This document shows, piece by piece, positions 1,924 to 64,000 of a stretch of DNA of 64,000 bases; positions within the stretch are counted from its first letter, which is position 1; the number at the start of each line of letters is the position of its first letter. The notes below the pieces were generated by a model, which was not told where the DNA came from, made no database searches, and was given only the letters and a program-made list of their open reading frames with translations. Both the position numbers and the translations under genes were made by a program. This DNA is from Siphonodentalium dalli (taxonomy: Eukaryota > Mollusca > Scaphopoda > Gadilida > Siphonodentaliidae), in assembly GCA_032622095.1 (NCBI GenBank), contig CP136069.1, forward strand, positions 155,423,043 to 155,487,042. Reading direction: 5' to 3'.

Positions 1924-4048
1924 TGTTTGTTGATCTGGGAGCTTCTGAGTACCAAGCCCTGCAGTAGACACCTGCGGGCCAGAAACGATTGTCAAGTAGT
2001 GGGATGCTTTCGTCTTTTGATACATTTAAACGAGCACTCACAGTCCCAATTCTGGAACTAGTGATGAGCTTCAAGAACGTTGGCTCGATACCTCTTTCAG
2101 ATAGAAAGTGAGCGAGGCCATTCTCTGTAGAACTTTCATCGATACCGCCCACGAAAAGACGCACTGTTCTTGTCCGGTGGACGCCTGAGAATCCATTTCG
2201 GTCATTATCTGAACGAGGATTCCTGTCAGAAATACGTGCGGTTTTGCGACTGGGCTCCCTCTTTAATGCCGCGGGACGTCTGTCGTTCCGTATTAGAGTT
2301 TCGATTTGCCTCGGTGCGCTCAGAGCATCGGCATAAGAATAAGGCGGACCGTCAGTGTTCACATGCTCAGCATGTTGTCGAGGAGGGGGTCTTTGTGTAG
2401 GATAATCTATACTACGTTCGCCATGTGTTGACAAATTATGAGCAGGATCGTCACTGTCCACGGATGCTCGTTGTATGTCGCTGTAGTTGTCGATGAACTT
2501 GAATATTTCTGACATATGTTTGCCAGCCTCTGGTTCGGTTATTACTTCAATGGGAGAAGGTTTTATACGAACAGGGGTGCGTTTAGAGTTGGAGTAATCA
2601 TCGCTATTGATCGAGAGATTTACTTCACAGACATTCAGATTTGCACTGTTGTTCGACGTATTGAGCTTCGAGTCTATATGGACAGATGTGTCAGCATCAA
2701 CATGAAGTTTTGCCTGTTTGTTAGAATCACATTTTGTGTTCATGTTGGCTGTTACAGGAGAAACAGAGTTGTACACACGTTCACTTGAGTTCTCGGGGGA
2801 TGTGGAGGGCCTAATGACATAGCAACTCCGCTTCGCGTGTGTTTCGAATGGAGAAACAGTTTCGGTGCACGAGGTGTCGGGTCGGGTGGCATTCGGAATA
2901 TGGGTCTGAACAATGGATCGGATTTCATCATATTTGTTTGCAGTATTGTCGGCATAAAGTTCGAAGACTTCCGCAAGCTGTTTGAATGTCGAATTCAAAT
3001 GCTCCTTTGTTTCCTTAGAAGACGACTTGCATTTCTGGGAACACTGCGTGACTTTGAGTTCAAGGCTGCGCGATTTTTGGGAGATTTTCGATGCGCGTGA
3101 TTCAATGTTCTTGAAATGTGAATCAACAGAATCGTTATTTGACTTTAAGTCGTTTTCAAGAACTTTGAGGCTGGATTTCAGTCCTGTTATTCCGTTCTTG
3201 GCTTCGTCATTCAGTCGTTCAACATCCAGTTTGATATTTTTCTGCTCGTCGACCACAGTCTTAATATCAGAGTTCAGTAAAGAGATAGATTCTTCTAGGC
3301 TGAGTATCGTTGTGTTTAGGTTTGCTTGAATGACTGTCATTTGAGTCAGCACTTCTCCGAGTTTATTTTGAACACATATAGAGTTGCATGCACAGGTCGA
3401 TACATCATTTTTAGGAGGTATCGGCGTCGCAGATTTCAACCGAGAAGATGGCGAAGTTAGCATGTCACGAATCTCATCCATGTTTCCGCCATTCATAAAC
3501 TGAACGAGGTTAAACACGTGTCTTGCGAGTTTTTTTGGAACAGGTATACCCTGGTCTCTGTTAATACGGTTTTTCAATTCATAGTCGAAGAGATCGGGGC
3601 ACACACCGCGCGCTTCAATAAATATGTTGGAGCGAAGACTTTCTAAACTGAAGCGATCCGGCATATCAATCAGAAGAGATGAAACGAACTGATCCCTTAG
3701 TTGATTCTGCAAACGTCGTAGATCCAACAAGGAATTATATTTGGGAATCTTCCTCTCAACGACATCTTTATCGGAATCAATAACACTGATTTCATCACGG
3801 ACACACTCCTCGCTGAGGAAATTATCACATGCCTCATCCAAATGAGAATCATCAATATTCTGAATAGAATTCAAATGGGACAGAGAAGCACACACTAGAA
3901 CAGTATATGTTTTCCCATCAACAATATTAATATGCTCACCCATGTTCATATGCGTACACACAGATGACTGTTCCATACTTGTATACGACCCACCAGGCCA
4001 GGAGAATAAAGAGACAGTACAAAAATATTTATTTAAACAAACAATCAA
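1907..4048 (-). CDS. LINE ORF1 protein, coiled coil plus C-terminal RRM-like domain
   Basis: This 713-residue open frame is the first ORF of the retrotransposon. ORF1 proteins of this kind bind the element's own RNA and form the ribonucleoprotein used in retrotransposition; that role is family knowledge. Seen here: a variable N-terminal part, a Cys-rich spot (CACNSIC, about residues 219-225), a heptad-rich Leu/Ile/Lys/Glu stretch at about 228-380 that reads as a coiled coil, a low-complexity Ser/Thr/Asn/Pro-rich middle, and a C-terminal block from about 627 with an RNP2-like string (VRLFVGGI) and an FWPAGVYCRAW string, consistent with an RRM-like fold. The annotated start is the first Met; Met25, Met34 or Met36 (MGEHINIV) may be the real start. 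Its stop overlaps the ORF2 start by 17 bases (ATG at 1923, TAA at 1909-1907), suggesting coupled translation. It is not a host gene. Confidence 0.85.
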   Translation of the reverse strand: MIVCLNKYFCTVSLFSWPGGSYTSMEQSSVCTHMNMGEHINIVDGKTYTVLVCASLSHLNSIQNIDDSHLDEACDNFLSEECVRDEISVIDSDKDVVERKIPKYNSLLDLRRLQNQLRDQFVSSLLIDMPDRFSLESLRSNIFIEARGVCPDLFDYELKNRINRDQGIPVPKKLARHVFNLVQFMNGGNMDEIRDMLTSPSSRLKSATPIPPKNDVSTCACNSICVQNKLGEVLTQMTVIQANLNTTILSLEESISLLNSDIKTVVDEQKNIKLDVERLNDEAKNGITGLKSSLKVLENDLKSNNDSVDSHFKNIESRASKISQKSRSLELKVTQCSQKCKSSSKETKEHLNSTFKQLAEVFELYADNTANKYDEIRSIVQTHIPNATRPDTSCTETVSPFETHAKRSCYVIRPSTSPENSSERVYNSVSPVTANMNTKCDSNKQAKLHVDADTSVHIDSKLNTSNNSANLNVCEVNLSINSDDYSNSKRTPVRIKPSPIEVITEPEAGKHMSEIFKFIDNYSDIQRASVDSDDPAHNLSTHGERSIDYPTQRPPPRQHAEHVNTDGPPYSYADALSAPRQIETLIRNDRRPAALKREPSRKTARISDRNPRSDNDRNGFSGVHRTRTVRLFVGGIDESSTENGLAHFLSERGIEPTFLKLITSSRIGTVSARLNVSKDESIPLLDNRFWPAGVYCRAWYSEAPRSTNNGYYK

Positions 4049-27690: not shown

Positions 27691-29540
27691 AACTTCAAGT
27701 AATAAGGTAACTACTCGTCAATGATGCTTGAATACATAAATGATTAATAAGGTAACAACTACCCGTCAATGATCGACGTCTTAATATAGAAAGGTTTTAT
27801 AAGGTAACTAACTACACGGCAATGGTACTTATTATAGAAGGTTAATAATTTAACTTCTTGTCAATGATGCTTTAATATAGAAAGGGTTAATAAGGTAACT
27901 ACACGTCAATAATGCTTTAGTGTAGAAATGGTTACTAAGGTAACTACATGTCAATGATGCTTTAATAAAGAAAGGGTTAATAAGATAAAGTTCTACACGT
28001 CAATGATGCTTAAATATAGAAAGGACTAATAGGGTAACTACACGTCAATGATGTTTTAATATAGAAAGGGTTATATGGTAATTACACGCCAATGGTGCTT
28101 TAATATAGAAAGGGTTAATATGGTAACTACCGTCCATGATGCTTTAATATAGAACTGGCTACTATGATACCTACATGTCAATGATGCTTTATTGTAGAAA
28201 GGGTTAATAATGTAACTAATCACCAATGATACTCATTATAAAAAGGGTTAATAAGGTAACTACCTGTCAATTATTGCTTCAACGTAGAAGGGTTAATAAG
28301 GTAATTACACGCCAATGGTGCTTTAATATAGAAAGGGTTAATATGGTAACTATCAGTCAATGATGCTTTAATATAGAAAGTGTTATAATATGGTAACTGC
28401 ACGTCAATGATACTTTGATACAAAAATGGTTAATAAGGAAGGTAATTACCCGTCAATGGCGCTTTAATATAGAAATGGTTTATAATGTAACTACTCACCA
28501 ATGATACTTAGTATAGAAAGGGTTGTTTAATATAACTACCTGTCAATTAATGCTTTAATATAGAAAGGGTTAATAAGGTAACTACACACCAATGATACTT
28601 AGTATAGAAAGGGTTAGTAAGGTAACTACACGACAATGATACTTTAGTATATAGAGGGTTAATTAGGCAACTACCCGTCAACGATGCTTTAATATAGAAA
28701 GGGTTAACATGGTAACTACACGTCAATGATATTTTAATAAAGAAAGGGCTAATAAGGTAACTACATGTCAATGCTGCTTTAATACAGAAATGGTTAATAA
28801 GGTAACTTCACGTCAATGATGCTTTAATATAGAAAGGGTTAATAATGTAACAACTCACCAATGATACTTAGTATAGAACGGGTTAATAAGATAACTACCC
28901 AGCAATAATGATGCTTTAATATAGAAAGGGTTATAATAAGGTAACTACAAGTCAATGATGCTTTAATACATAAATGGTTAATAAGGTAACTACCCGCCAA
29001 TGGCGCTTTAATATAGAAAGGGTTAATAATGCAACTACTCACCAATGATACTTAGTATAGAAAGGGTTAATAAGGTAACTACCTGTCAATTAATGCTTTA
29101 ATATAGAAAGGGTTAATAACGTAACTACACGCCAACGGTACTTAGTATAGAAAGGGTTAATAAGGTAACTATATACGACAATGATACTTTGGTATATACA
29201 GAGTTAAGGAGCCAACTACCCGTCAATGATGCTATACTATAGAAAGGGTTAACATTGTAACTACACATCAATGATATTTTAATATAGAAAGGGTTAATAA
29301 GGTAACTACACGTCAATGGTGCTTTAATAAAGAAAGGGTTAATAAGGTAACTTCACATCAATGGTGCTTTTATATAGAAAGGGTTAATAATGTAACTACT
29401 CACCAATGTTACTTAGTATAGAAAGTGTTAATAAGGTAACTAACTACCTGTCAATTAATGATTTAATATAGAAAGGGTTAATAAGGTAACTACACGCCAA
29501 TGATGCTGTAATATAGAAAGGGTTAATAATGTGACTTCAA
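27691..29540. repeat. 45-bp minisatellite, about 40 units
   Basis: Consensus unit: ggttaataaggtaactacac followed by gtcaatgatgctttaatata and gaaag. Variants alternate between 'gatgctttaatatag' and 'gatacttagtatag', suggesting higher-order units. The unit length is a multiple of three, so several ORFs of 60-75 codons arise that encode 15-residue repeats; these follow from the periodicity and are not evidence of a protein. Confidence 0.95.
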
Positions 29541-30374: not shown

Positions 30375-33240
30375 CGTGATAATTAGGCCCAGTTGACCGT
30401 CGGTTGACACCTACAGATATCCTGGGAGGATGGAAAATAAGAAATCGACCAATTTTGAAGGAAATTTCCTATAGTTTGAACATTTAGTGGCACAAACTGT
30501 CACTATATGGTCACATAATCACCATTTCTACCCGCCTTACCGAAAACCCGGACCAGTTGACCGTCGGTTGACCACCCACAGATATCCTGGGGGGATGGCA
30601 AATAAGAAATCGACTAATTTTGAAGGAAATTTCGTATAGTTTGAACATTTAGTGGCACAAACTGTCACTATATGGTCACATAATCACCATTTCTACCCGC
30701 CTTACCGAAAACCCGGACCAGTTGACCGTCGGTTGACCACCCACAGATATCCTGGGGGGGTTGGCAAATAAGAAGTCGACCAATTTTGAAGGAAATTTCG
30801 TATAGTTTGAACATTTAGTGGAACAAGCTGTCGCTATATGACCACATAATCACCATTTCTACCCGCCTTACCGAAAACCCGGACTAGTTGACCGTCGGTT
30901 TACCACCCACAGATATTCTGGGGGGATGGCAAATAATAAATCGACCAATTTTGAAGGAAATTTCGTATATTTTGAACATTTAGTGGCACAAGCTGTCGCT
31001 ATATGGCCACATAATCACCATTTCTACCCGCCTTACCGAAAACCCGGACCAGTTGACCGTCGGTTTACCACCCACAGATATCCTGGGGGATGGCAAATAA
31101 GAAATCGACCAATTTTGAAGGAAATTTCGTATAGTTTGAACATTTAGTGGCACAAGCTGTCGCTATATGGCCACATATTCACAATTTCTACTCGCCTTAC
31201 TGAAAACCGGACCAGTTGACCGTCGGTTGACCACCTACATATATCCTGGGGGGATGGCAAATAAGAAATCGACCAATTTTGAAGGAAATTTCGTATAGTT
31301 TGAACATTTAGTGGCACAAGCTGTCGCTATATGGCCACATAATCACCATTTCTACCCGCCTTACCGAAAACCCGAACCAGTTGACCGTCAGTTGACCACC
31401 CACAGATATCCTGGGGGATGGCAAATAAGAAATCGACCAATTTTGAAGGAAATTTCGTATAGTTTGAACATTTAGTGGCACAAGCTGTCGCTATATGGTC
31501 ACATAATCACCAATTCTACCCGCCTTACCGAAAACCCGGACCAGTTGACCGCCGGTTGACCACCCACAGATATCCTGGGGGATGGCAAATAAGAAATCGA
31601 CCAATTTTGAAGGAAATTTCGTATATTTTGAACATTTAGTGGCACAAGCTGTCGCTATATGGCCACATAATCACCATTTCTACCCGCCTTACCGAAAACC
31701 CGGACCAGTTGACCGTCGGTTTACCACCCACAGATATCCTGGGGGATGGCAAATAAGAAATCGACCAATTTTGAAGGAAATTTCGTATAGTTTGAACATT
31801 TAGTGGCACAAGCTGTCGCTATATGGCAACATATTCACAATTTCTACTCGCCTTACTGAAAACCGGACCAGTTGACCGTCGGTTGACCACCTACATATAT
31901 CCTGGGGGGATGGCAAATAAGAAATCGACCAATTTTGAAGGAAATTTCGTATAGTTTGAACATTTAGTGGCACAAGCTGTCGCTATATGGCCACATAATC
32001 ACCATTTCTAGCCGCCTTACCGAAAACCCGAACCAGTTGACCGTCAGTTGACCACCCACAGATATCCTGGGGGATGGCAAATAAGAAATCGACCAATTTT
32101 GAAGGAAATTTCGTATAGTTTGAACATTTAGTGGCACAAGCTGTCGCTATATGGTCACATAATCACCATTTCTACCCGCATTACTGAAAACCCTGACCAG
32201 TTGACCGTCGGTTGACCACCTACAGATATCCTGGGGGATGGCAAATAAGAAATCGACCAATTTTGAAGGAAATTTCGTATAGTTTGAACATTTAGTGGCA
32301 CAAGCTGTCGCTATATGGTCACATAATCACCAATTCTACCCGCCTTACCGAAAACCCGGACCAGTTGACCGCCGGTTGACCACCCACAGATATCCTGGGG
32401 GGATGGCAAATAAGAAATCGACCAATTTTGAAGGAAATTTCGTATAGTTTGAACATTTAGTGGCACAAGCTGTCGCTATATGGTCACATAATCACCAATT
32501 CTACCCGCCTTACCGAAAACCCGGACCAGTTGACCGCCGGTTGACCACCCACAGATATCCTGGGGGGATGGCAAATAAGAAATCGACCAATTTTGAAAGA
32601 AATTTCGTATATTTTGAACATTTAGTGGCACAAGCTGTCGCTATATGGCCACATAATCACCATTTCTACCCGCCTTACCGAAAACCCGGACCAGTTGACC
32701 GTCGGTTTACCACCCACAGATATCCTGGGGGATGGCAAATAAGAAATCGACCAATTTTGAAGGAAATTTCGTATAGTTTGAACATTTAGTGGCACAAGCT
32801 GTCGCTATATGGCCACATATTCACAATTTCTACTCGCCTTACTGAAAACCAGACCAGTTGACCGTCGGTTGACCACCTACATATATCCTGGGGGGATGGC
32901 AAATAAGAAATCGACCAATTTTGAAGGAAATTTCGTATAGTTTGAACATTTAGTGGCACAAGCTGTCGCTAAATGGCCACATAATCACCATTTCTACCCG
33001 CATTACTGAAAACCCTGACCAGTTGACCGTCGGTTGACCACCTACAGATATCCTGGGGGATTGGCAAATAAGAAATCGACCAATTTTGAAGGAAATTTCG
33101 TATAGTTTGAACATTTAGTGGCACAAGCTGTCGCTATATGGTCACATAATCACCAATTCTACCCGCCTTACCGAAAACCCGGACCAGTTGACCGCCGGTT
33201 GACCACCCACAGATATCCTGGGGGGATGGCAAATAAGAAA
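30375..33240 (+). repeat. ~164-bp satellite array, about 17.5 monomers
   Basis: Monomers start at about 30392, 30556, 30721, 30887, 31052 and so on to 33187, each with 'gttgaccgtcggttgacc', 'atcctggggggatggcaaat', 'aagaaatcgaccaattttga', 'aggaaatttcgta', 'acatttagtggcacaagctg' and 'ctacccgccttaccgaaaac'. A diagnostic variant ('actcgccttactgaaaacc', then 'ctacatatatcc') recurs at about 31190, 31846 and 32830, spacings of four and six monomers, so there is higher-order structure. ORFs in the array are frame artefacts. Confidence 0.95.
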
Positions 33241-34202
33241 TAAGTGCACATCCATGGCATCGACACCATAGCAACACACGTGCGTTTGGGCTTAACCTGC
33301 CTATTATTTGATAGCCGAAGTGTTTAAATAATAACATTATGTTCATATTCGCATTGAGGGTCTTTATAAGATTTCCAATACATTGCACAAAATATGGGGA
33401 GCCAAAATAACTATAGTTCAAAGATTCACTTCACTCCTGGAATAATGAAAATATCTCATGACCATAAGTGATGGAAAGGGCTTTATTGCACACCCAATGG
33501 CTTATTTGTGCGAAATACAGCAAAATACAGAAGATTTCAAACGTTCAATAAACGATTGTGTATTGTTCTTGAACAATACAAACCGATTACGTCAACGTCA
33601 TTGGCGACGTTTTACCACAGTCAATTTCTTTACTAAATTGTTAGGTTCTACATTAAGGACACATGTGTTCAATTAAATAAACAACATATATGGTAGACCT
33701 AAATGTTTATATATTACAAGCTACAATCATCAGAGTGTGCAATAAACATAGAAGAACACAGCTTTGTGAACATGTTAACGTAATTGCACTCGTTTGTCAT
33801 GCCGCGAGGTAAAACTCGAACCTCCGGTTCTCATTTTACTATCGCGTCACAACAAACTCGTGCAATAACGTTATCATGTTCACACAATTGTGTCGTACTA
33901 TCTATGTATTCACTTCACTCCTGGAATAATGAAAATATCTCATGACTATAAGTGATGGAAAGGGCTATCTCTGCCTTAATATTTATATAATTATCATGAC
34001 ATAACCAAGCAGAATGTTGCGAGTAAGTTGCGAGTAAGTTGCGTGTCACTAAGTTTATTTTATAATCGGCTTATATATACCACGCCACATTGCGCCATTT
34101 ACAATTTCACGACGTGAAGTCCTTTTTCGCCGAGTATATGAACACATGTCATATATAGCGACACACTGTAGCTTAAACGCAGTTGGTCCGTGTGAACTTG
34201 AA
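33241..34202. repeat. No gene; 60-bp direct repeat and a hairpin
   Basis: About 33427-33484 and 33908-33966 share 'cacttcactcctggaataat' through 'agtgatggaaagggct'. Between them 33773-33887 is an inverted repeat (arms of about 36 bases, 'gaacatgttaacgtaattgc' side). The pair could be remnants of a duplicated segment. They are too short and unstructured to call LTRs. Confidence 0.55.
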
Positions 34203-35320
34203 TCTCATATATATTTTGAAGACCTCTGCATGTCTGTCTGTCTGTTTGTCTGTTTGTCTGTCATTAATACAAATCTACGATTCTCGACCGATCGGGACGA
34301 AACTTGGTACGTGTGTGTAGTTTGACCAGGCGGTCGTCGTTGTCGTATTGGCGAGCCCGTGCGACACCCGTGCAGCGCATGCGCAGACGAGATCTCGGAA
34401 ACGGGTGGAACTATCGACTTGACATTTGCTATGTGAATGTATCTTGCCCCGGATACGAATTTTATCGGGTCGCCGAGCCCGTGCGACGCCAGCTTCGCGC
34501 ATGCGCAGACCAGATCTCGGAAACGGGTGGCGCGATCGGGACGAAACTTGGTACGTGTGTGTAGTTTGACCAGGCGGTCAATATCAGCTCATCAGATTTC
34601 AGATCCGAGATCAACTTTTCACGTGCCGAGGTCAAATCTGTTTTTACGCCGTTTTGCGCTAATATATTTCAGTTCGGTGCTCACAAATCGATTCGATATA
34701 GCGCGAATAATAAATTGCCAGTCATATAATTTGCATGGTTAGAATCTGTGGCGCTTCCTCTTTCCAACGATATATCACAGCCTGTGTCCGTTTAAAGTTT
34801 CTACCTTAATTATCCGGAAGAACGCAGGACCATGCTTCGGTCATCGAAAAACATTCCGTGAATCTATTACGCCGTCAAGAGATCGTGACGTGATCGCGTT
34901 TAACTCTTAACCGCGCGGCCGATGTCGCGTTAACTCATCACCGGCCGAGGTATCCGCAAATCAGACCAGATCTCGGAAACGGGTGGAGCTATCGACTTGA
35001 AATTTGGTATGTGAATTTATCTTGCCCAGGATACGAATTTTATCGGTTCGCGGAGCCCGTGCGACGCCAGATTCGCGCATGCGCAGACGAGATCTCGGAA
35101 ACGGGTGGATCTATCGACTTGAAATTTGGTATGTGAATGTATCTTGCCCCGGATACGAATTTTATCGGGTCGCCGAGCCCGTGCGACGCCAGCTTCGCGC
35201 ATGCGCAGACCAGATCTCGGAAACGGGTAGAGCTATCGACTTAAAATTTGGTTTTTGAATAGCTATCGACTTGAAATTTGGTTTTTGAATAGCCCGGACA
35301 ACGTCGGGCTCATCGGCTAG
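34203..35320 (+). mobile_element. Non-autonomous Helitron-like element, family H1
   Basis: The 5' end is TCTCATATATATTTTGAAGA preceded by A (34202). The 3' end has a hairpin (AGCCCG-n8-CGGGCT) then CATCGG and CTAG (35317-35320) followed by T. Insertion between A and T, a 5' TC, a 3' CTAG and a GC hairpin just before it are the structural hallmarks of Helitrons. It carries copies of a 122-bp unit (aaacgggtgg...tatcgacttg...gcccgtgcgac) and a TCTG repeat. No Rep/helicase ORF. Confidence 0.75.

Positions 35321-54411: not shown

Positions 54412-54416
<5 letters not shown>

Positions 54417-54449
<33 letters not shown>
54417..54449. repeat. (TA)n microsatellite
   Basis: Alternating TA directly before the CTAG end of the H3 element. 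Confidence 0.95.
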
Positions 54450-54450
<1 letters not shown>

Positions 54451-55049
54451 TAGAAGATGACCTGACTTCGTCCGGGCTTTGACCTTGAATTGACCATTTT
54501 GAAGGTCAAGGTCAGTTGGGGTAACGATTTGACCCGTCCAAAACACTGCCCGGACAAAAGTACCCGACAAAAGTACCCGTCGAAATCCATCCTGTTTTAC
54601 CCGATTTGACCTTGAATTGATCATTTTGAAGGTCAAGGTCAGGTCGGGGTCACGACTCGACCCGTCCAAAACACCCAGTGGACAAAGGTAACCCCACGTA
54701 TCAAATTTCGTCGAAATCCCATCAAAATTGGCGATTTGACCTTGAATTGACCCGATTTCAAGGTCAAGGTAACGTCGCACGGGTAAATGAATATGCTTAT
54801 GAGACTCCCCATACGAAAGTACCCCCACATACCAAGTTTCATTGAATCCCGTGATCTTCGGGTGTTTGACCTTGAAACGACCCGATTTCAAGGTCAAGAT
54901 CGCGTCGCACGGGCAAATTAATAGGCATATGTCACTCCCCGGCCGATAATACCCCCACATACCAAGTTTCATCGAAATCGGCTCGGCCGTTTTCGAGTCC
55001 ATCGATTACAGACACACACACACACAGATCTTCCAAAATATATAATAGA
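54450..55049 (-). mobile_element. Helitron-like element, family H3
   Basis: On the minus strand it begins TCTATTATATATTTTGGAAG and ends with a GC-rich imperfect hairpin (AAGCCCGGACGAAGTCAGG) and CTAG (54450-54453). Inside, a unit with 'ttgaccttgaattgac', 'caaggtcaaggt' and 'taccaagtttcat' is repeated four or five times. A 216-codon frame across it is repeat-derived, and I do not consider it a gene. Confidence 0.65.
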
Positions 55050-55491
55050 CTAGCCGATGAGCCCGACGTTGTCCGGGCTATTCAAAAACCAAATTTCAAG
55101 TCGATAGCTCCACCCGTTTCCGATGAGCCCGACGTTGTCCGGGCTATTCAAAAACCAAATTTCAAGTCCATAGCTCTACCCGTTTCCGAGATCTGGTCTG
55201 CGCATGCGCGAAACTGGAGTCGCACGGGCTCGGCGACCCGATAAAATTCGTATCCGGGGCAAGATACTTTCACATAGCAAATTTCAAGTCGATAGCTCCA
55301 CCCGTTTCCGAGATCTCTCTGCGCATGCGCGAAGCGGGCGCCGCACGGGCTCGCCAATACGACAACGTCCACCGCCTGGTCAAACTACACACACGTACCA
55401 AGTTTCGTCCCGATCGGTAGAGAATCGTAGATTTGTATAAATGACAGACAAACATACAAACATACAGAGGTCTTCAAAAATATATATGAGA
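55050..55491 (-). mobile_element. Helitron-like H1 element a
   Basis: CTAG 3' end at 55050-55053, 5' TCTCATATATA end at 55491. About two internal 122-bp units plus an extra copy of the 'gatgagcccgacgttgtccg' hairpin near 55122. Confidence 0.7.
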
Positions 55492-56142
55492 CTAGCCGAT
55501 GAGCCCGACGTTGTCCAGGCTATTCAAAAACCGACGAAATTTGTATCCGGGGCAAGATACATTGACATAGCAAATTTCAAGTCGATAGCTCCACCCGTTT
55601 CCGAGATCTGGTCTGCGCATGCGCGAAGCTGGCGTCGCACGGGCTCGGCGACCCGATAAAATTCTTATCCGGGGCAAGATACATTCACATACCAAATTTC
55701 AAGTCGATAGCTCCACCCGTTTCCGAGATCTCGTCTGCGCATGCGCGAAGCTGACGTCGCACGGGCTCGGTGACCCGATAAAATTCTTATCCGGGGCAAG
55801 ATACATTCACATACCAAATTTCAAGTCGATAGCTCCACCCGTTTCCGAGATCTCGTCTGCGCATGCGCGAAGCTGACGTCGCACGGGCTCGGTGACCCGA
55901 TAAAATTCGTATCCGGGGCAAGATACATTCACATACCAAATTTCAAGTCGATAGCTCCACCCGTTTCCGAGATCTCGTCTGCGCATGCACGGGCTCGCCA
56001 ATACGACAACGTTCACCGCCTGGTCAAACTACACTCACGTACCAAGTTTCGTCCCGATCGGTCGAGAATCGTAGATTTGTATTAATGACAGACAGACAGA
56101 CAGACAAACAAACAAACAGAGGTCTTCAAAATATATATGAGA
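55492..56142 (-). mobile_element. Helitron-like H1 element b
   Basis: Abuts element a exactly (CTAG at 55492-55495). About four 122-bp units (period measured at 55611, 55733, 55855). The 5' end TCTCATATATATTTTGAAGA is at 56142. Confidence 0.72.
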
Positions 56143-56159
56143 CTAGCAGGTTAGCCCGC

Positions 56160-56370
56160 CACTGGCGGCAATCGTCAGAAACATGACATTTTTTAAAATT
56201 ATTTTGTTTTTATTTATATTTTTTAAAATATATTTTAATATTAATTTAATGTTTTTTAAATTTAATTTAATGTTTTTTAAATTTAATTTATGTTTTTTTG
56301 AATTTTTTAATATTTATTTAATTATTAGTTTAATTTAATTCTTTTTTATAATTTAATTGTTTTTTTTTAT
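56160..56370. repeat. A/T low-complexity stretch
   Basis: Runs of 'tttaatttaatg' and 'tttttta'. A similar stretch follows the H2 3' hairpin at 60130-60245 and 62455-62540. Confidence 0.7.
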
Positions 56371-56497
56371 GAAAAATCCCCCCTTCCTAGGAACGACAGA
56401 CAACGCATTCTTTGTTTTTCAATGAGTTAATTCATGGTACCCGTCCTAAACTTCCCCGTTATTTAACTCCCCGTGGCCATTGAGCAGCCCCTGACAG

Positions 56498-58196
56498 AGG
56501 ATAGGATAATTTATTTACAATATACACATGAATAATACAATGGAAGTAACACATAAAAGGTAATGTTGTATATTGTTGGGGGTTAGCCTAGCCCTATCGG
56601 GCTGTCTTCCTGCTACCCCCTATATCACTATAAATAATTGAATCGATGGCTTGTATTTCATATCCACGCACACGTACAGACTATAATCATATACATATAA
56701 AAGTATCTAGAACATAGTATTTAGGGCATATCACAAACAAGTATCGGTGTGGTTGTGAGACAATCCAGACTAGTTATAAGATCGATAATGCATTATCTCT
56801 CCATAATAATGTTTTGAACTTTTCATATTTTCTAACACATATGAACAGTTTCGATTCCAGTTCCATGGGTATTTTAAGAACAAAGTATTTAGTTTTTATA
56901 AGAGGAATCTATATAGATCGCCGGAAAGTCTTTGTGTTGAGTGAGGTTTAGGGATAATTCAAATTAACAGTACAAATATATAATGTTTATATGTATGTCT
57001 AGTGGTATAGGGTCATTGTTAGAGAAGTCCTAATGATGTACGGTAGTATTATGATGCATGGTAGTATATGGGCATTTTTTAGGAACGAGAATGCGATAGT
57101 GTGAACACCGGTGTGAATGTTCGTATTATTTAAGAGCACAGTCCTTTGTTTTTACATCGTACACTTTCTGGGTAATTTCTCAGCATGGCTATCTGTAAGC
57201 GCTTCTTCAATGTGTGCCTGCTTTGGCAAGATGTATAATCTTTTTCCATATTGTTCCATGTTGTGGGGAAGGCGTGGTGGGGTAGTTTTCCCGACCAGTC
57301 AGTTCTAGGTAGTTCTAATAGTACGGGATTCCGGTGTCTAGGTGTTGATTTTGCTCGTTTGTTGTACATCATTCCAAAAGACGCGGGCAGGCGATTATAA
57401 CACCAGTCATGCATGAAAATTGACGAATTGAGAGTGTGTAAGTCATATATTTTCAAGATTTTCTCTTTTTTAAAGAGTGGATCTGTGTGACTCCTGTACT
57501 TCTTATTGCATATTATACGCAATGCTCGTTTTTGTAATAGGAATACTTTCTTGACTTCCGGGACATGACCCCATATTTGGATACCATAAACTAAGTGGCT
57601 TTGAATCAGTGCATAGTACAATGTTTTCAATGCTTTACTTGGGAAAAAGTTTTTCACCTTATTGATGCAATAGATTGCATGTGATATTTTGGAGCAGATT
57701 ATGGATATGTGCTTTTTGAATGTCAAGTTTTCATCAATGTGGATACCTAGAAATCGTGTCGATGATTCACGCCCAAGATTCCATATCCGGTTCAATTGAA
57801 TGTTATTTAGCGTTAATGTCAAAGTATTCCATTTGTTGTCATTGTTTTGGGGGTGTAAAAGCATATAATTGCTTTTATTAATATTAATTGATAGTTTATT
57901 ACAGCAGCACCAATCGGATACATTGGCTAATTCATTGTTGACATAACTTTGTACTAGTTCGCCATCTTTACCGCTTGTGAATAGTGTATAGTGTCATCGG
58001 CATAAAATGTCCATTGTTGTAGAATTTACCATATCATTCACGTATATTAAAAAAATAATCGGCCCAAGAATTGAGCCTTGGGGGACTCCACAGGAAGTAT
58101 TCATAAGGTGAGAAGTACTCCCACTATATTCAACGTATTGCCTCCTCTCATTCAGGTAACTTGTCCACCCTTACGAGATGGTCAATAGAACTCGAT
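56498..58196 (-). pseudogene. 5'-truncated LINE: RT palm/thumb and C-terminal region plus 3' UTR
   Basis: On the minus strand from about 58185: GWTSYLNERRQYVEYSGSTS, then CGVPQGSILGPIIFLIYVND (RT motif B), a YADDT catalytic box near 57990, DGELVQSYVNNELANVSDWC, KSNYMLLHP, RFLGIHIDENLTFKKHI, then KALKTLYYALIQSHLVYGIQ, IWGHVPEVKK and LQKRALRIICNKKYR. A TAA precedes GWTSYL. The YADD box is read in another frame: apparently one base lost before it and two bases (TA) gained after, restoring the frame. The 244-codon ORF 57130-57864 is the downstream part. The 3' UTR ends near 56498 with 'aataaattatcctatcc'. It is a LINE remnant of Jockey/CR1 type; it lacks an endonuclease and is inactive. Confidence 0.85.
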
Positions 58197-58250
58197 GAAA
58201 TCCCCCCCCCCTTCCTAGGAACGACAGACAACGCATTCTTTGTTTTCCTT
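58197..58250 (+). repeat. 'ccttcctaggaacgacagac' repeat, one of four copies
   Basis: The string ccttcctaggaacgacagac with acgcattctttgtt occurs at about 56384, 58210, 62574 and 62718, i.e. on both sides of the LINE and twice more in the H2 elements to the right. Confidence 0.7.
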
Positions 58251-58643
58251 TTTTTTAACACTGATTCCCGGAAACGACTCACATAAGCATTCACGCTTGA
58301 TGTCGATTCAGGTATTGCATTGAAAACAAACGCGATAACATTGCATTGAATTGCCCGTCATACAGATAAGTAGATAGCGAAAACGACGCTCTTTATATAG
58401 ACACTTCGGAAAACTGACGCTCTTTAACTATCAACGCGATTAACCCCCGCCGTGCCTTTGCGGTGATTTTGAGAGTGGAGAACGCGTGCTCTGAGCTTCT
58501 CCAAAATGCCGCGACGACGATTCCCGTGGGTTTTTACATTTAGATGGGAAGTTTGAACTCAATCGAGCGAACCGTTTTCGATTCTATGAAGTACACACAT
58601 ATATATATATATACGAAGTCTCAAAATATATAGTATAGATAGA

Positions 58644-59014
58644 CTAGCCGATGAGCCCGACGTTGTCCGGGCTATTCAAAAACCAAATTTCAGAACCAAA
58701 TTTCAATGTGCATGCGCGAAGCTGGCGTCGCACGGCCTCGGCGACCCGATAAAATTCGTATCCGGGGCAAGATACATTCACATACCAAATTTCAAGTCGA
58801 TAGCTCCACCCGTTTCCGAGATCTCTCTGCGCATGCGCGAAGCGGGCGCCGCACGGGCTCGCCAATACGACAACGTCCACCGCCTGGTCAAACTACACAC
58901 ACGTACCAAGTTTCGTCCCGATCGGTCGAGAATCGTAGATTTGTATAAATGACATACATACAGACAAACAAACATACAGCCAGACAAACAGAGGTCTTCA
59001 AAATATATATGAGA
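58644..59014 (-). mobile_element. Helitron-like H1 element c
   Basis: CTAG end at 58644; 5' TCTCATATATA at 59014; the shortest array member, with one to two 122-bp units. Confidence 0.68.
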
Positions 59015-59566
59015 CTAGCCGATGAGACCGACGTTGTCCGGGCTATTCAAAACCCAAATTTCAAGTCGATAGTTCTACCCAGCCCGACGTTGTCCGGGCT
59101 ATTCAAAAACCAAATTTCAAGTCGATAGCTCTACCCGTTTCCGAGATCTGGTCTGCGCATGCGCGAAGCTGGCGTCGCACGGGCTCGGCGACCCGATAAA
59201 ATTCGTATCCGGGGCAATATACATTCACATACCAAATTTCAAGTCGATAGCTCCACCCGTTTCCGAGATCGCTTCTGCGCACGCGCGAAACTGGCGTCGC
59301 ACGGGCTCGGCGAACGATAAAATTCGTATCCGGGGCAAGATACATTCACATAGCAAATTTCAAGTCGATAGCTCCGCCCGTTTCCGAGATCTCTCTGCGC
59401 ATGCGCGAAGCGGGCGCCGCACGGGCTCGCCAACACGACAACGTCCACCGCCTGTTCAAACTACACACACGTACCAAGTTTCGTCCCGATCGGTCGAGAA
59501 TCGTAGATTTGTATAAATGACAGACAAACATACAAACATCCAGAGGTCTTCAAAATATATATGAGA
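59015..59566 (-). mobile_element. Helitron-like H1 element d
   Basis: Same ends; about three units and a partial duplication of the 3' hairpin region at 59079-59105. Confidence 0.7.
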
Positions 59567-60117
59567 CTAGCCGATGAGCCCGACGTTGTCCGGGCTATTC
59601 AAAAACCAAATTTCAAGTCGATAGCTCCACCCGTTTCCGAGATCTGGTCACATAGCAAATTTCAAGTCGATAGCTCCACCCGTTTCCGAGATCTCATCTG
59701 CGCATGCGCGAAGCTGGCGTCGCACGGGCTCGGCGATCCGATAAAATTCGTATCCGGGGCAAGATACATTCACATACCAAATTTCAAGTCGATAGCTCCA
59801 CCCGTTTCCGAGATCTCGTCTGCGCATGCGCGAAGCTGGCGTCGCACGGGCTCGGCGACCCGATAAAATTCGTATCCGGGGCAAGATACATTCACATAGC
59901 AAATTTCAAGTCGATAGCTCCACCCATTTCCGAGATCTCGTCTGCGCATGCGTGAAGCGGGCGCCACACGGGCTCGCCAATACGACAACGTCCACCGCCT
60001 GGTCAAACTACACACACGTACCAAGTTTCGTCCCGATCGGTCGAGAATCGTAGATTTGTATAAATGACAGACAGACAGACAAACAAACAAACAGAGGTCT
60101 TCAAAATATATATGAGA
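59567..60117 (-). mobile_element. Helitron-like H1 element e
   Basis: Same ends; about three units; abuts element d and the H2 element to the right. Confidence 0.7.
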
Positions 60118-60605
60118 CTAGCAGGTTTTCAATGAGTTAATTGTGCTTTTTTAATTTTTTAATTTTTTAATTTTATTTTACCCGATTTTTTTTGGTTTTT
60201 CAAGGAGTTAATTATGCCTTTTTAATTTTTTTTTTCAATTTTACCCGATTTTTTGTTGTTTTTCAATGAACCCGTCCATGACACTTCCCGTAGGTAGCAA
60301 GTTTGAGCTCAATCGGCATTCCCTGGAATTTCCCAGTAAATATTTAGCAAGTTTGAGCTCAATCGGTTCAAGTCTATAAAGGACACACTCATATATATGA
60401 CACTTCCCGTAGGTAGCAAGTTTGAGCTCAATCGGCATTCCCTGGAATTTCCCAGTCACCAACGCGGCGTAATTTTGGTACATATATATAGAGACCAATT
60501 GTCCATCGGCTGTCATGTGTAGTAAAGATGTCTTATAAGCCGACATTGCCGTGGGGATGCCCGTTCCTACACGCGTTTTCGATTCTATGAAGTACCCACA
60601 TATAT

Positions 60606-60649
<44 letters not shown>

Positions 60650-60673
60650 GGAAGTCTCAAATTATATAGTAGA
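60118..60673 (-). mobile_element. Helitron-like H2 element b, 3' hairpin deleted
   Basis: CTAGCAGGTTTTCAATGAGT: the CTAG and first bases are present, but the GCCCGCC hairpin is missing. It contains two copies of 'ttcccgtaggtagcaagttt' and 'gagctcaatcggcattccct', then a (TA)n run and a TCTACTATATAATTTGAGAC 5' end. Confidence 0.6.
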
Positions 60674-61460
60674 CTAGCAGGTTAGCCCGCCACCGGCGGC
60701 GTTCGTCAGAAGCATGACATTTTTAAAATTATTAAAAAAACAATTAAATGTTTTAATGATTGATTTGTCAATTGAACTGAATGGTCAGAATACAGAACTG
60801 AAAACGTGAGGAGACACGATGAGCCCGACGTTATCCGGGCTATTCAAAAACCAAATTTATCGCACGGGCTCGCCAATGCGACAACGACGACCACCTGGTC
60901 AAACTACACACACGTACCAAGTTTCGTCCCGATCGGTCGAGGTGTTGGTATCTGATGCAAAAGACGAAATTGTGAGTGTTGGTTTGTAACCGGGATTTCA
61001 GAGAAGTATCCACACTAACTACCCCCTAAGCCCTGACCTAAGTGTCATACATACTATAACAATGATGCTGAACACTTTGAGGCAATTATATTGCAGAAAT
61101 GTTGTAAGAGTACTATGGCATCCAATAAATCTCCCCGCATAGGAAACCACTCAAACGTATCCCGTATATCTCTCTGCAGTTGCTAATAACGTTGAATGGT
61201 AACAAACGCTCTTTATAGCGATGCGTCAAAAAACAAACGCTCATTAAATTATGACTTGATTAACCACCGCGGTGCCGATTGCGGTGATTTTAATGTTTGG
61301 GAAGGGAGAAACGGTGCTCTGAGCTTCTCCAAAACGCGACCACGGCGGTGTCCGTGTGATTTCACACTTATATACGAAATTTGAGCTCGATGGGTGCAGT
61401 CGTTTTCGATTCTATAAAGTACACACATATATATATACGGAAGGTTCAAAATATATAGTA
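60674..61460 (-). mobile_element. Helitron-like H2 element c with embedded H1 piece
   Basis: Typical 3' end (CTAGCAGGTTAGCCCGCCAC). A fragment of H1 ('gagcccgacgttatccgggc' and 'gtttcgtcccgatcggtcg') sits at about 60822-60940. The 5' end is slightly altered (TACTATATATTTTGAACC). Confidence 0.6.
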
Positions 61461-62397
61461 CTAGCAGGTTAGCCCGCCACTGGCGTGCTTGGTCAGAAAC
61501 ATGACATTTTTTAAATACATTTTTTAACGATTGATTCGTTAATTGAACTGCGACCCGATAAAATTCATATCCGGAGCAAGATACATTCACATAGCAAATT
61601 TCAAGTCGATGGCTCCACCCGTTTCCGAGATCTCGTCTGCGCATGCGTCGCACGGGCTCGGCGATTCGATAAAATTCGTACCCGGGGCAAGATACATTTA
61701 CATACCAAATTTCAAGTCGATAGCTCAACCCGTTTCCGAGATCTCGTCTGCGCATGCGCGAAGCTGGCGTCGCACGGGCTCGGCGAACCGGTAAAATTTT
61801 TATCCAGGGCAAGATACATTCACATAGCAAATTTCAAGTCGATAGCTCCACCCGTTTCCGAGATAACGCATTCTTTGTTTTCCAATGAGTTAATTCATGG
61901 TACCCGTCCTAAACTTCAGAGCGGACAGTCAATTAATCCCGTCGTGAAATCCCTCTGCATAATATTTCGAGCTCTTAGATCAATTCTGCCTTTTTAGTCG
62001 AGATAATTTCATTTCGTCCGCATCCATATTTCGGACGCATGGGGTCAGTCGTTTAGCCACGTCCATTGGAATCCACTTCCGTATTTCTAACGCATGTGGT
62101 GTGTCGTTTAGAAACGACCATATCAATAAAGAGCGTTTATTACTAAAACCTCCGTATAAGGTATAGATAAAGAGTGTTATTGCCTTAACCCCCCCCCCCG
62201 CTGTGCCTTTGCGGTGATTTGGGAGTGGATAAAGGGTGCTCATGGCTTCTCGAAAACCATACTACGGCGGTGTCGGTGAGATTTTACACTTACATACGCA
62301 ATTTGATCTCAATCTGTACACGCGTTTTGGATTCTATGAAGTACACACATATATACACACACATATATATACGAAGTCTCAAAATATATAGTATAGA
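61461..62397 (-). mobile_element. Helitron-like H2 element d with embedded H1 units
   Basis: H2 3' end at 61461, then 122-bp H1 units at about 61551-61865 inserted without H1 ends, then H2 sequence to a TCTATACTATATATTTTGAG 5' end. Confidence 0.6.
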
Positions 62398-63496
62398 CTA
62401 GCAGGTTAGCCCGCCACTGGCGGCATTCGTCCCATGGCTTTGTTTCAGAAACATGACATTTTTGTAATTATTTTGTTTTTATTTATTTTTGTTTTTTATT
62501 TTTTAATTTGAATTTAATGTTTTTTAAATTTAATTTTTTGTTTCTGGCGGAAAAATTTACCCGTAGAAATCGCCCCTTCCTAGGAACGACAGACAACGCA
62601 TTCTTTGTTTCGTGAAATCTCTCTACGATAACATTGCATTGAATTGAAATTAAATTTTAAATTGTTTTAATTAAATTTTTTGTTTCTGGCGGAAAAATTT
62701 ACCCGTAGAAATCCCCCCTTCCTAGGAACGACAGACAACGCATTCTTTGTTTCGTGAAATCTCTCTACGATAACATTGCATTGAATTTAAAACAAACGCT
62801 TCCCGTCGGGAAATCTGTCTTCGGGTCTTTGTTGGCATCACGGCTCCCCGAAAACTCTCACATTGCCGAAAACGTGTATTTAGTAATATCGTTGTTGTTG
62901 ATATTTACGGCTTGGGGGCTATTTTCTTATTTAGCAAGTTTGAGCTCAATCGGTTAGAGTCTATAAAGGACACACTCATATATATGACACTTCCCGTAGG
63001 TAGCAAGTTTGAGCTCAATCGGCATTCCCTGGAATTTCCCGTAGATTGGCAGATTCCAGTAGCTTTATAACGGTATATCTGGGGAGAAATCTGATGCTAT
63101 ATTCGTGATTATCTGGGATGATTTCGGTATATACCGAAGGTATATACTGTAAAATCAAAGCGCGCCATCCGTGCTCGCAGGGAATAAATTTCGAGCGATA
63201 ACGTTTGCGTTCCCGTATAACTCTGCAGATGCGAATAACGTTGAATGGGAAACAGACGCTCTTTATAGAGATGCGTCAAAAACAAACGCTCATTAAATAA
63301 TCACTTGATTAACCCCCGCCGTGCCTTTGCGGTGATTTGAGATTGGAGAACCGGTGCTCTGAGCTTCTCTAAACCGCTACCACGGTCGTGTCGGTGGGAT
63401 TTGACACTTACATAGGAAGTTTGATCTCAATCTGTACACGCGTTTTGGATTCTATGAAGTACACACACACACACACATATACGAAGTCTCAAAATA
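62398..63496 (-). mobile_element. Helitron-like H2 element e, left arm of inverted duplication
   Basis: H2 3' end (CTAGCAGGTTAGCCCGCCAC), an internal direct duplication around 'aaaaatttacccgtagaaat' (62550 and 62692), and a 5' region truncated at the palindrome centre. Confidence 0.6.
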
Positions 63497-64000
63497 TATT
63501 TTGAGACTTCGTATATATGTGTGTGTGTGTGTGTGTACTTCATAGAATCCAAAACGCGTGTACAGATTGAGCTCAAACTTCCTATGTAAGTGTCAAATCC
63601 CACCGACACGACCGTGGTCGCGGTTTAGAGAAGCACAGAGCACCCGTTCTCCAATCTCAAATCACCGTAAAGGCACGGCGTGGGTTAATCAAGTGATTAT
63701 TTAATGAGCGTTTGTTTTTGACGCATCTCTATAAAGAGCGTCTGTTTGCCATTCAACGTTATTTGCATCTGCAGAGAGATATACGGAACATACATTAAAT
63801 TAAAAAAACATTTGTTTCTGACCAACCCTGCGAGCACGGATGGCGCGCTTTGTTTTTACAGTATATAGTTATATACCGAAATCATCCCAGATAATCACGA
63901 ATATAGCATCAGATTTCTCCCCAGATATACCGTTATAAAACTACTGGAATCTGCCAATCTACGGGAAATTCCAGGGAATGCCGATTGAGCTCAAACTTGC
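62993..64000. repeat. Large inverted duplication centred at 63496/63497, open at window end
   Basis: 63497-64000 is the reverse complement of about 62993-63496, starting with a perfect 'gaagtctcaaaata' dyad. The arms differ by roughly ten substitutions over 300 bases and by one diverged block (63195-63222 against about 63778-63828), so they are not identical copies. The window ends while still inside the right arm. Confidence 0.85.

Follow-up and report, generated by a model that had tools for sequence, protein, structure and literature searches.

Tandem arrays of Helitron-like elements in the genome of Siphonodentalium dalli very probably arose by insertion of new copies into the 5′ tips of resident copies, which match the target sequence of the elements; in one type of element, termed H3-long, the tip is cut in this process, and duplication played a secondary role. 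The window, i.e., the whole stretch of 64,000 bp that was analyzed (C9:155423043-155487042 of an assembly of 2.23 Gb in nine contigs), contains such an array on its minus strand at 54450-63496. Our interpretation is based on sequence comparison. In the following, L-numbers designate other genomic stretches fetched for comparison, C1, C2, C8 and C9 are contigs, and genome-wide figures comprise whole counts plus the first 100 places listed per pattern. A slash marks a junction and a caret an insertion point.

The head-to-tail arrangement of Helitron-like elements that a sequence-only reading of this stretch had described is real. The array consists of 11 units of three families, with five H3 units, five H2 units and one H1 unit. 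All ten internal junctions (last CTAG base at plus-strand coordinates 62398, 61461, 60674, 60118, 59567, 59015, 58644, 56143, 55492, and 55050) are free of spacers, as had been stated. Nine of them join the 3′ CTAG of one unit to the 5′ TC of the next, whereas the junction at 61461 is CTAG/TAC, which departs from the description. The last unit of the array terminates with CTAG/TATATATA at 54450. H2 elements start with TCTCATATATATTTTGAAGACC and end with CATCGGCTAG, and H1 elements start with TCTATTATATATTTTGG and have the 3′ end GGTCATCTTCTAG in the window array. H3 elements start with either TCTATAC-TATATATTTTGAG (H3-long) or TCTAC-TATATAATTTGAG (H3-short) and end with GGCGGGCTAACCTGCTAG. The array and its downstream flank are composed as follows:

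54415-54449, no strand: host (TA)n following the terminal 3′ CTAG of the last array unit
54450-55049, minus: H1 unit, 5′ TCTATTATATATTTTGG, 3′ GGTCATCTTCTAG
55050-55491, minus: H2 unit, 5′ TCTCATATATATTTTTG, 3′ CATCGGCTAG, adjoining the H1 tip
55492-56142, minus: H2 unit
56143-58643, minus: H3-long unit with an additional TCTA at its tip (CTAG/TCTA/TCTATAC) and an insert of about 1.8 kb at about 56390-58218
58644-59014, minus: H2 unit
59015-59566, minus: H2 unit
59567-60117, minus: H2 unit
60118-60673, minus: unit with an H3-short tip (TCTACTATATAATTTG); its atypical 3′ end, AAAACCTGCTAG, lacks the hairpin sequence of H3
60674-61460, minus: H3 unit with the cut tip CTAG/TACTATATATTTTG, TCTA being gone
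61461-62397, minus: H3-long unit with TCTATAC tip
62398-63496, minus: H3 unit, the most upstream of the array, without its TC tip, which was lost at the centre of the palindrome (63496)

Arrays of this kind are widespread. The exact junction CTAG/TCTCATATATATTTTGAAGACC, a 26-mer, occurs 8,207 times in the genome and its reversed control not at all. Chance is thus excluded, since CTAGTCTCATATATATTTTGAAGACC was counted 3,929 + 4,278 times against 0 for the pattern written backwards, a comparison that the sequence-only reading had proposed. Neither are the junctions limited to a single locus and explained by one segmental duplication, given their genome-wide number and the fact that neighbouring H2 units in the window are no more similar to each other than H2 units at other loci are. 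Directly before the 100 H1 tips listed we found CTAG in 69 cases, a degenerate CTAG in 2, a host A in 26 and a host T in 3; before the 100 H2 tips listed, the numbers were 41 for CTAG, 2 for degenerate CTAG, 5 for a 3′ end without G and 52 for a host A. Both tip patterns omit sites with T at one upstream position. The five tips of the penultimate class, all on C1, follow an upstream 3′ end that lacks its last base, giving CTA/TCTC rather than CTAG/TCTC. With a similar restriction, 16,614 H2 3′ ends were counted, of which 2,804 are followed by T plus A, G, or T and the remaining 83% by TC or a base other than T.

The families commonly mix within arrays, yet their pairing is non-random. Behind the 100 H2 3′ ends listed, the next sequence was an H1 tip in 44 cases, an H2 tip in 26, an H3 tip in 3, another tip-like sequence in 3, and host or other DNA in 24; the view that the mixture of families in the window is unusual therefore finds no support. 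The 100 H3 3′ ends listed were followed by H3 in 44 cases (23 of them cut tips), by H2 in 9, by H1 in 5, by other tip-like sequences in 8 and by host or other DNA in 34.

The elements insert at A^T, with a TATA-like stretch following a few bases downstream. This preference was read from the DNA behind 100 listed H2 3′ ends that are followed by T and A, G, or T; removal of 8 tip-like, 11 pure (TA)n and 20 rows with repeated first 12 bases left 61 unique host flanks. In 57 of these TATA begins at position +3 to +8 past the insertion point, compared with 6.6% of 10,979 A^T sites elsewhere in the window. The same placing was seen in 25 of 26 host flanks of H3 that had been selected by eye and were counted by hand, and the 3′ junctions of other families encoding the Helitron protein RepHel (see below) are similar, with CTAG/TATATAATAA in L014, CTAG/TTCTATATATAGG in L019 and CTAG/TTGTATATATT in L015.

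The target arrangement recurs, in the same register, at the 5′ tips of H1, H2, and H3. When the tips were scored with a matrix of the host flanks comprising 14 positions, position 2 being omitted because C had been excluded there by the search, the outer site of the H1 tip ranked in the top 0.26% of A^T sites, that of H2 in the top 0.50% and that of H3-short in the top 2.9%. For the H3-long tip, an inner site located four bases in, TCTA^TAC, ranked at 0.12% and the outer site at 9.1%. The inner site of the H2 tip, TCTCA^TATATATTTTG, ranked at 8.7%, and the junction expected from an insertion at this position was found 0 times genome-wide versus 8,207 outer junctions. These ranks therefore predict that H3-long tips are cut and that the tips of H1, H2 and H3-short have clean CTAG/TC junctions.

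Since the 5′ tips of all three families carry the motif, each copy would be a target. According to the proposed mechanism, the left junction of a resident copy, A/TC..TATATA, would itself be recognized, as the match and the footprints described below suggest. A new copy entering there would create the order A/(new copy)CTAG/TC(old copy), and its own tip would serve as the next target. In H3-long, where the best site lies four bases in, insertion would split the tip and yield TCTA/(new copy)CTAG/TAC(old copy). Families with interchangeable tips would be able to enter each other, giving rise to mixed arrays, and younger units would be expected upstream. Tandem duplication or read-through would then multiply portions of some arrays. 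By analogy with the bacterial HUH element IS608, the left cleavage site and the target would be one and the same sequence, which would explain why the tip copies the target.

Growth in the opposite direction has to be considered as well. New copies could reuse the host TATA and enter at CTAG^T, where the resident copy ends, so that arrays would extend downstream; each insertion does leave the host TATA next to the 3′ end, and clean junctions would be indistinguishable. However, such entry takes place at G^T, whereas the host-flanked tips follow an A in 52 of 52 H2 rows and 26 of 29 H1 rows, and it yields no cut H3 tips with a displaced TCTA. We regard it as extremely unlikely.

Cut H3 tips are frequent, the exact form CTAG/TACTATATATTTTGAGACTTCG being present 1,022 times in the genome. 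In a sample of 100 H3-long tips, 28 were cut and began with TAC, and all 28 were located directly behind CTAG. The others were intact after CTAG (37), preceded by extra TCTA (19), otherwise intact (11), or variant (5). If cut tips result from insertion at TCTA^TAC, the TCTA should consequently be displaced to the front of the upstream unit. H3-long tips with at least one extra TCTA were counted at 776 places genome-wide, and TCTA precedes H2 tips at 649 places; no extra TCTA was present before any of the 100 H1 tips listed.

The displaced TCTA is linked to cut H3 tips in the case of H2. Among H2 tips preceded by TCTA on C1 (up to 171.5 Mb), 15 of 49 had a cut H3 tip on the same strand within 4 kb downstream, whereas none of 97 plain H2 tips (p = 1.5e-8) and none of 100 plain H1 tips did. 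Of the 100 places listed for each pattern, this rate comparison covers 71 with extra TCTA and 49 with TCTA before H2, i.e., those up to the last listed cut tip, and it counts cut tips of the exact CTTCG form only. The control tips stem from C1 below 22.5 Mb (H2), 35.4 Mb (H1) and 51.6 Mb (H3), and the test tips from the region up to 171.5 Mb. The comparison replaces directional counts, in which the cut tip had the extra TCTA on its upstream side in 24 of 28 clusters (13 versus 1 for H2 tips). These counts were rejected as biased, since by definition a cut tip stands behind CTAG and is never the first in an array. A neighbour test (8 of 11 versus 7 of 30, p = 0.008) was made on the sample that had suggested the idea.

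Slippage of a microsatellite at the tip could also produce extra TCTA, in which case the cut tips would be unrelated small deletions. Runs of up to five TCTA copies, as in L011, and the non-significant comparison within H3 reported below are in accord with this explanation. However, H2 tips start with TCTC, and therefore a TCTA in front of them cannot be tip slippage; these TCTA are moreover the ones associated with downstream cut H3 tips (15/49 versus 0/97). Slippage is also at odds with the lack of extra TCTA before the 100 H1 tips and with the position of the sampled cut tips, 28 of 28 of which stand behind CTAG. Altogether, we consider it very unlikely.

The displaced TCTA was also traced locus by locus. 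Eight loci with a cut tip, L029-L036, were chosen such that no H3 tip with extra TCTA was present within 4 kb upstream, and in seven of them a tip of H1, H2 or a variant H3 bore a leftover TCTA. L029 contains two cut units, one of them with a base change at the junction, and two extras; L030 shows two one-to-one pairs of extra and cut unit, and L031, L032 and L036 one pair each. In L034 and L035, two extras face one cut unit within the fetched stretch. By hand count and with the rows of a 56-bp satellite in L032 excluded, 9 of the 19 uncut tips upstream of the cut H3 tip in these eight loci carried an extra TCTA, compared with 2 of the 200 listed H1 and H2 tips. Nine further loci, L020-L028, were fetched because both marks, extra TCTA and cut tip, had been listed for them. 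L022 is a complete example with the order host A/TCTA/TCTATAC...CTAG/TAC...CTAG/TGTGTATATAG, and in L023 the front piece is TCTTCTA, which resembles a tip variant in L012. Split tips and leftovers are thus observed directly, and we infer that they have a common origin.

Two side observations concern the same loci. In L030, a 72-bp flank ending with A before TCTA is present twice (1358-1429 and 3269-3340; 98.6% alike), at the head of an H1 unit in one case and of an H2 unit in the other, and a cut H3 tip follows each. In L032, a 56-bp tandem repeat with the core TATATATTT extends over 2268-3220, and the Helitron array begins where the repeat stops.

Several observations weigh against insertion into tips as the origin of the arrays. 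Family pairing is non-random, and intact CTAG/TCTATAC junctions (37 of 100) are more frequent than cut ones (28 of 100), which the matrix alone does not predict. Within H3, when account is taken of the fact that a cut tip never stands first, a cut tip was found within 4 kb downstream of 23 of 48 extra-TCTA tips above 51.6 Mb and of 11 of 23 below this position, versus 15 of 46 plain tips; the difference has the expected direction and is not significant (p = 0.15 and 0.29, respectively). For the cut tip at 61461 in the window no leftover is in view, the tips upstream of it being an intact TCTATAC and the one lost at the palindrome, and downstream of the extra TCTA at 58644 there is no cut unit. 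L011 contains six extras and three cut units, and L033 no leftover TCTA within 3.9 kb. Mismatched counts may result from an element moving together with its extra TCTA or from a two-unit composite moving from its inner TC. A strict counter, in which the number of extra TCTA equals that of cut units, was considered as well. It holds for L022, L029, both pairs in L030, L031, L032 and L036 and fails in the window, in L011 and in L033, while L034 and L035 have two extras per cut unit, and such a counter is not claimed.

Insertion was one of two explanations offered by the sequence-only reading, which had named repeated insertion at Helitron ends or rolling-circle read-through. The former is well supported and can be narrowed to the 5′ tip of the older copy; the latter, like duplication, retains a secondary part. 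In read-through, the transposase would run past the 3′ end of a copy or circle and insert a preformed concatemer, so that CTAG/TC junctions would be formed in a single event. Helraiser circles carry a precise CTAG/TC joint according to the available part of PMC4778049, and near-identical neighbours do exist, with 99.8% identity in L009, 99.8% in L013 and 99.0% in L018. In addition, a block of 2.3 kb comprising two units, which are 98.1% alike, is repeated in L013 at 99.9% identity, and RepHel domains on C2 recur at a distance of 8,571 bp within H2-type units that are 99.9% identical over the 3,037 bp compared. In the window, however, the three pairs of neighbouring H2 units are merely 92.1, 95.5 and 90.8% identical and differ in length, the median for H2 units at other loci being 94.1% (pairs with more than 80% coverage). 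Read-through is also unable to join different families in one event and gives no tips cut at TCTA^TAC with TCTA displaced upstream. As a general origin of the arrays it is very unlikely.

Even less probable, and indeed extremely unlikely, is that segmental or tandem duplication (unequal exchange) of one old junction multiplied the arrays. Periodic runs, such as those in L013 and of H3 tips on C1 near 5.79, 5.81 and 49.03 Mb, speak for it, but the junctions on C1 are scattered among many different host flanks and involve many family pairs, and the units in the window differ in length and sequence. We read the arrays as the product of serial self-targeted insertions plus some tandem duplication.

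Regarding their class, the elements are Helitrons of the canonical type, mostly non-autonomous and presumably mobilized by the RepHel protein, with its HUH motif and two tyrosines, of copies with matching ends. The tips of H1, H2 and H3 start with TCT and thus have the canonical 5′ TC, and CTAG, a variant of the canonical 3′ CTRR, is found in all three families. The predicted 3′ hairpin has 6 bp at 10 nt from the terminus in H2 and 5 bp at 13 nt from it in H3, and the predictions for the two H1 variants are weaker. Insertion at A^T without target duplication can be read from the host A/TC and CTAG/T flanks, L022 again being a complete example. A RepHel protein (HUH, two tyrosines, PIF1-type helicase) with matching ends was found for H1 and H2. 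The search for Helitron_like_N gave 151 matches among the best candidates scored, many in frames of about 1,500-1,700 aa; Helitron_like_N, PIF1 and Pif1_2B Pfam domains were present in the three frames read for them, and among five frames read for motifs HxH was present in four and Y-x3-Y in all. In L017, an H1 tip lies 3.4 kb before a RepHel frame of 1,674 aa, and in L018/L016 a whole H2-type unit with tip, RepHel frame and H2-type 3′ end abuts the next unit; both are within CTAG/TC arrays. Among the copies examined, no RepHel copy with H3 ends was identified. Helentrons and Helitron2 elements have ends and targets other than TC..CTRR at A^T, and assignment to this group was rejected since the array elements have TC..CTAG at A^T. 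RepHel frames of 2,239-2,864 aa, which we take to be Helentron-like by their length, exist in the genome as well (e.g., C8:4875782 and C8:82475387), and no link between them and the array ends was made.

Tandem Helitrons have been reported for bats, plants, Drosophila and fungi (PMC5876387, PMC5148889, PMC12628747); these and the following comparisons refer to the available portions of the sources. Helibat1/Helraiser shares with the present elements the 5′ TC, the 3′ CTAG and hairpin, the RepHel protein, A^T insertion without duplication, an AT-rich 3′ flank, occasional abutment and, in Helraiser, the CTAG/TC circle joint (PMC4778049, PMC5876387). Helraiser insertions favour A^T in AT-rich DNA, and this preference is strongest toward the 3′ side (PMC4778049). 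In contrast to these systems, the S. dalli families have a TATA target in fixed register that is matched by their own tips, and mixed arrays are one of the main states in which these families occur. Barley Helitrons likewise have an asymmetric target, A-T with AAA starting 8 bp downstream, whereas TATA is at +3 to +8 here, and in the portion of PMC5738225 available the barley target is not tied to the element's own 5′ end or to arrays.

Head-to-tail arrays are also known from centromeric plant Helitrons (Xiong et al., 2016, via PMC12628747). Those are described as truncated copies with many 5′ ends and a single 3′ end, derived from one amplified unit, whereas nearly all units in S. dalli are two-ended and families are mixed. 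A rolling-circle Helitron satellite of that type was rejected for the window array, in which each of the 11 units has a CTAG end of its own and three families occur together. Self-insertion of the fungal FoHeli type differs in concerning single cases with other termini, for which no common target motif is shown in the part of PMC5148889 available. Transposon dimers in Drosophila (McGurk and Barbash, via PMC12628747) resemble the present arrays in that tandem pairs result from insertion preference and not from replication; unlike them, the dimers are, as far as described there, not Helitron-specific, and no leftover record is reported. IS608, a bacterial HUH transposon, keeps its TTAC target in the left flank, where it is required for the next move; it has an enzyme of a different family and its target is read by base pairing with a guide sequence (PMC5934647). 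In a word search of the silkworm Helitron paper (PMC3789558), the words tandem, array and head-to-tail were absent. None of the titles and abstract openings covered, among them those of few subscription papers, tied a Helitron 5′ tip to the target motif or reported split-tip leftovers.

Tandem Helitrons and asymmetric AT-rich targets are thus already known, and what is new is a likely cause of the arrays, the mimicry of the target by the tip, together with its footprints. The target choice of Helitrons and their tandem occurrence have so far been argued largely from rolling-circle models. If the target is indeed the elements' own left tip, this would account for tandem arrays, family mixing and the register-specific footprint, and it would provide a record of insertion order within a locus as well as a path from scattered transposons to satellite-like arrays. 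The rule is testable in other Helitron-rich genomes and in the Helraiser assay. Tentatively, and with somewhat more doubt than confidence, it could be extended to Helitrons in general: the enzyme might make one kind of nick, at N^T ahead of a TATA or AT motif that can melt, at its own left end, the circle joint and the target alike, so that each insertion would make a new target, arrays would grow upstream in time order, and displaced TCTA would record insertions within a locus.

The window contains two further features related to these families:

34203-35320, plus: solo H2 in host DNA, with ...GAA, the AT-site, the tip TCTCATATATATTTTG and the 3′ end CTAG/TATAATATATT (TATA-type target)
62819-64000, no strand: window portion of an inverted repeat centred on 63496, which continues to position 184 of L007

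The inverted repeat consists of two H3 copies joined head to head via AATATATT, with a perfect core of 20 bp per side. Its arms are 92.4% identical, which argues against a simple fold-back in the assembly. The insert at about 56390-58218 in the H3 unit is flanked by copies of CCTTCCTAGGAACGACAGACAACGCATTCTTTG, a sequence found elsewhere in the array, too. It holds an open frame of 287 aa (57130-57993, minus strand) that looks LINE-like by eye, and a Pfam search of this frame gave no match. An Rfam search over the window gave no match at gathering thresholds. Two satellite arrays are also present in the window, one at 27700-29536 with 40.3 copies of a 45-bp unit and one at 30389-33241 with 17.4 copies of a 164-bp unit.

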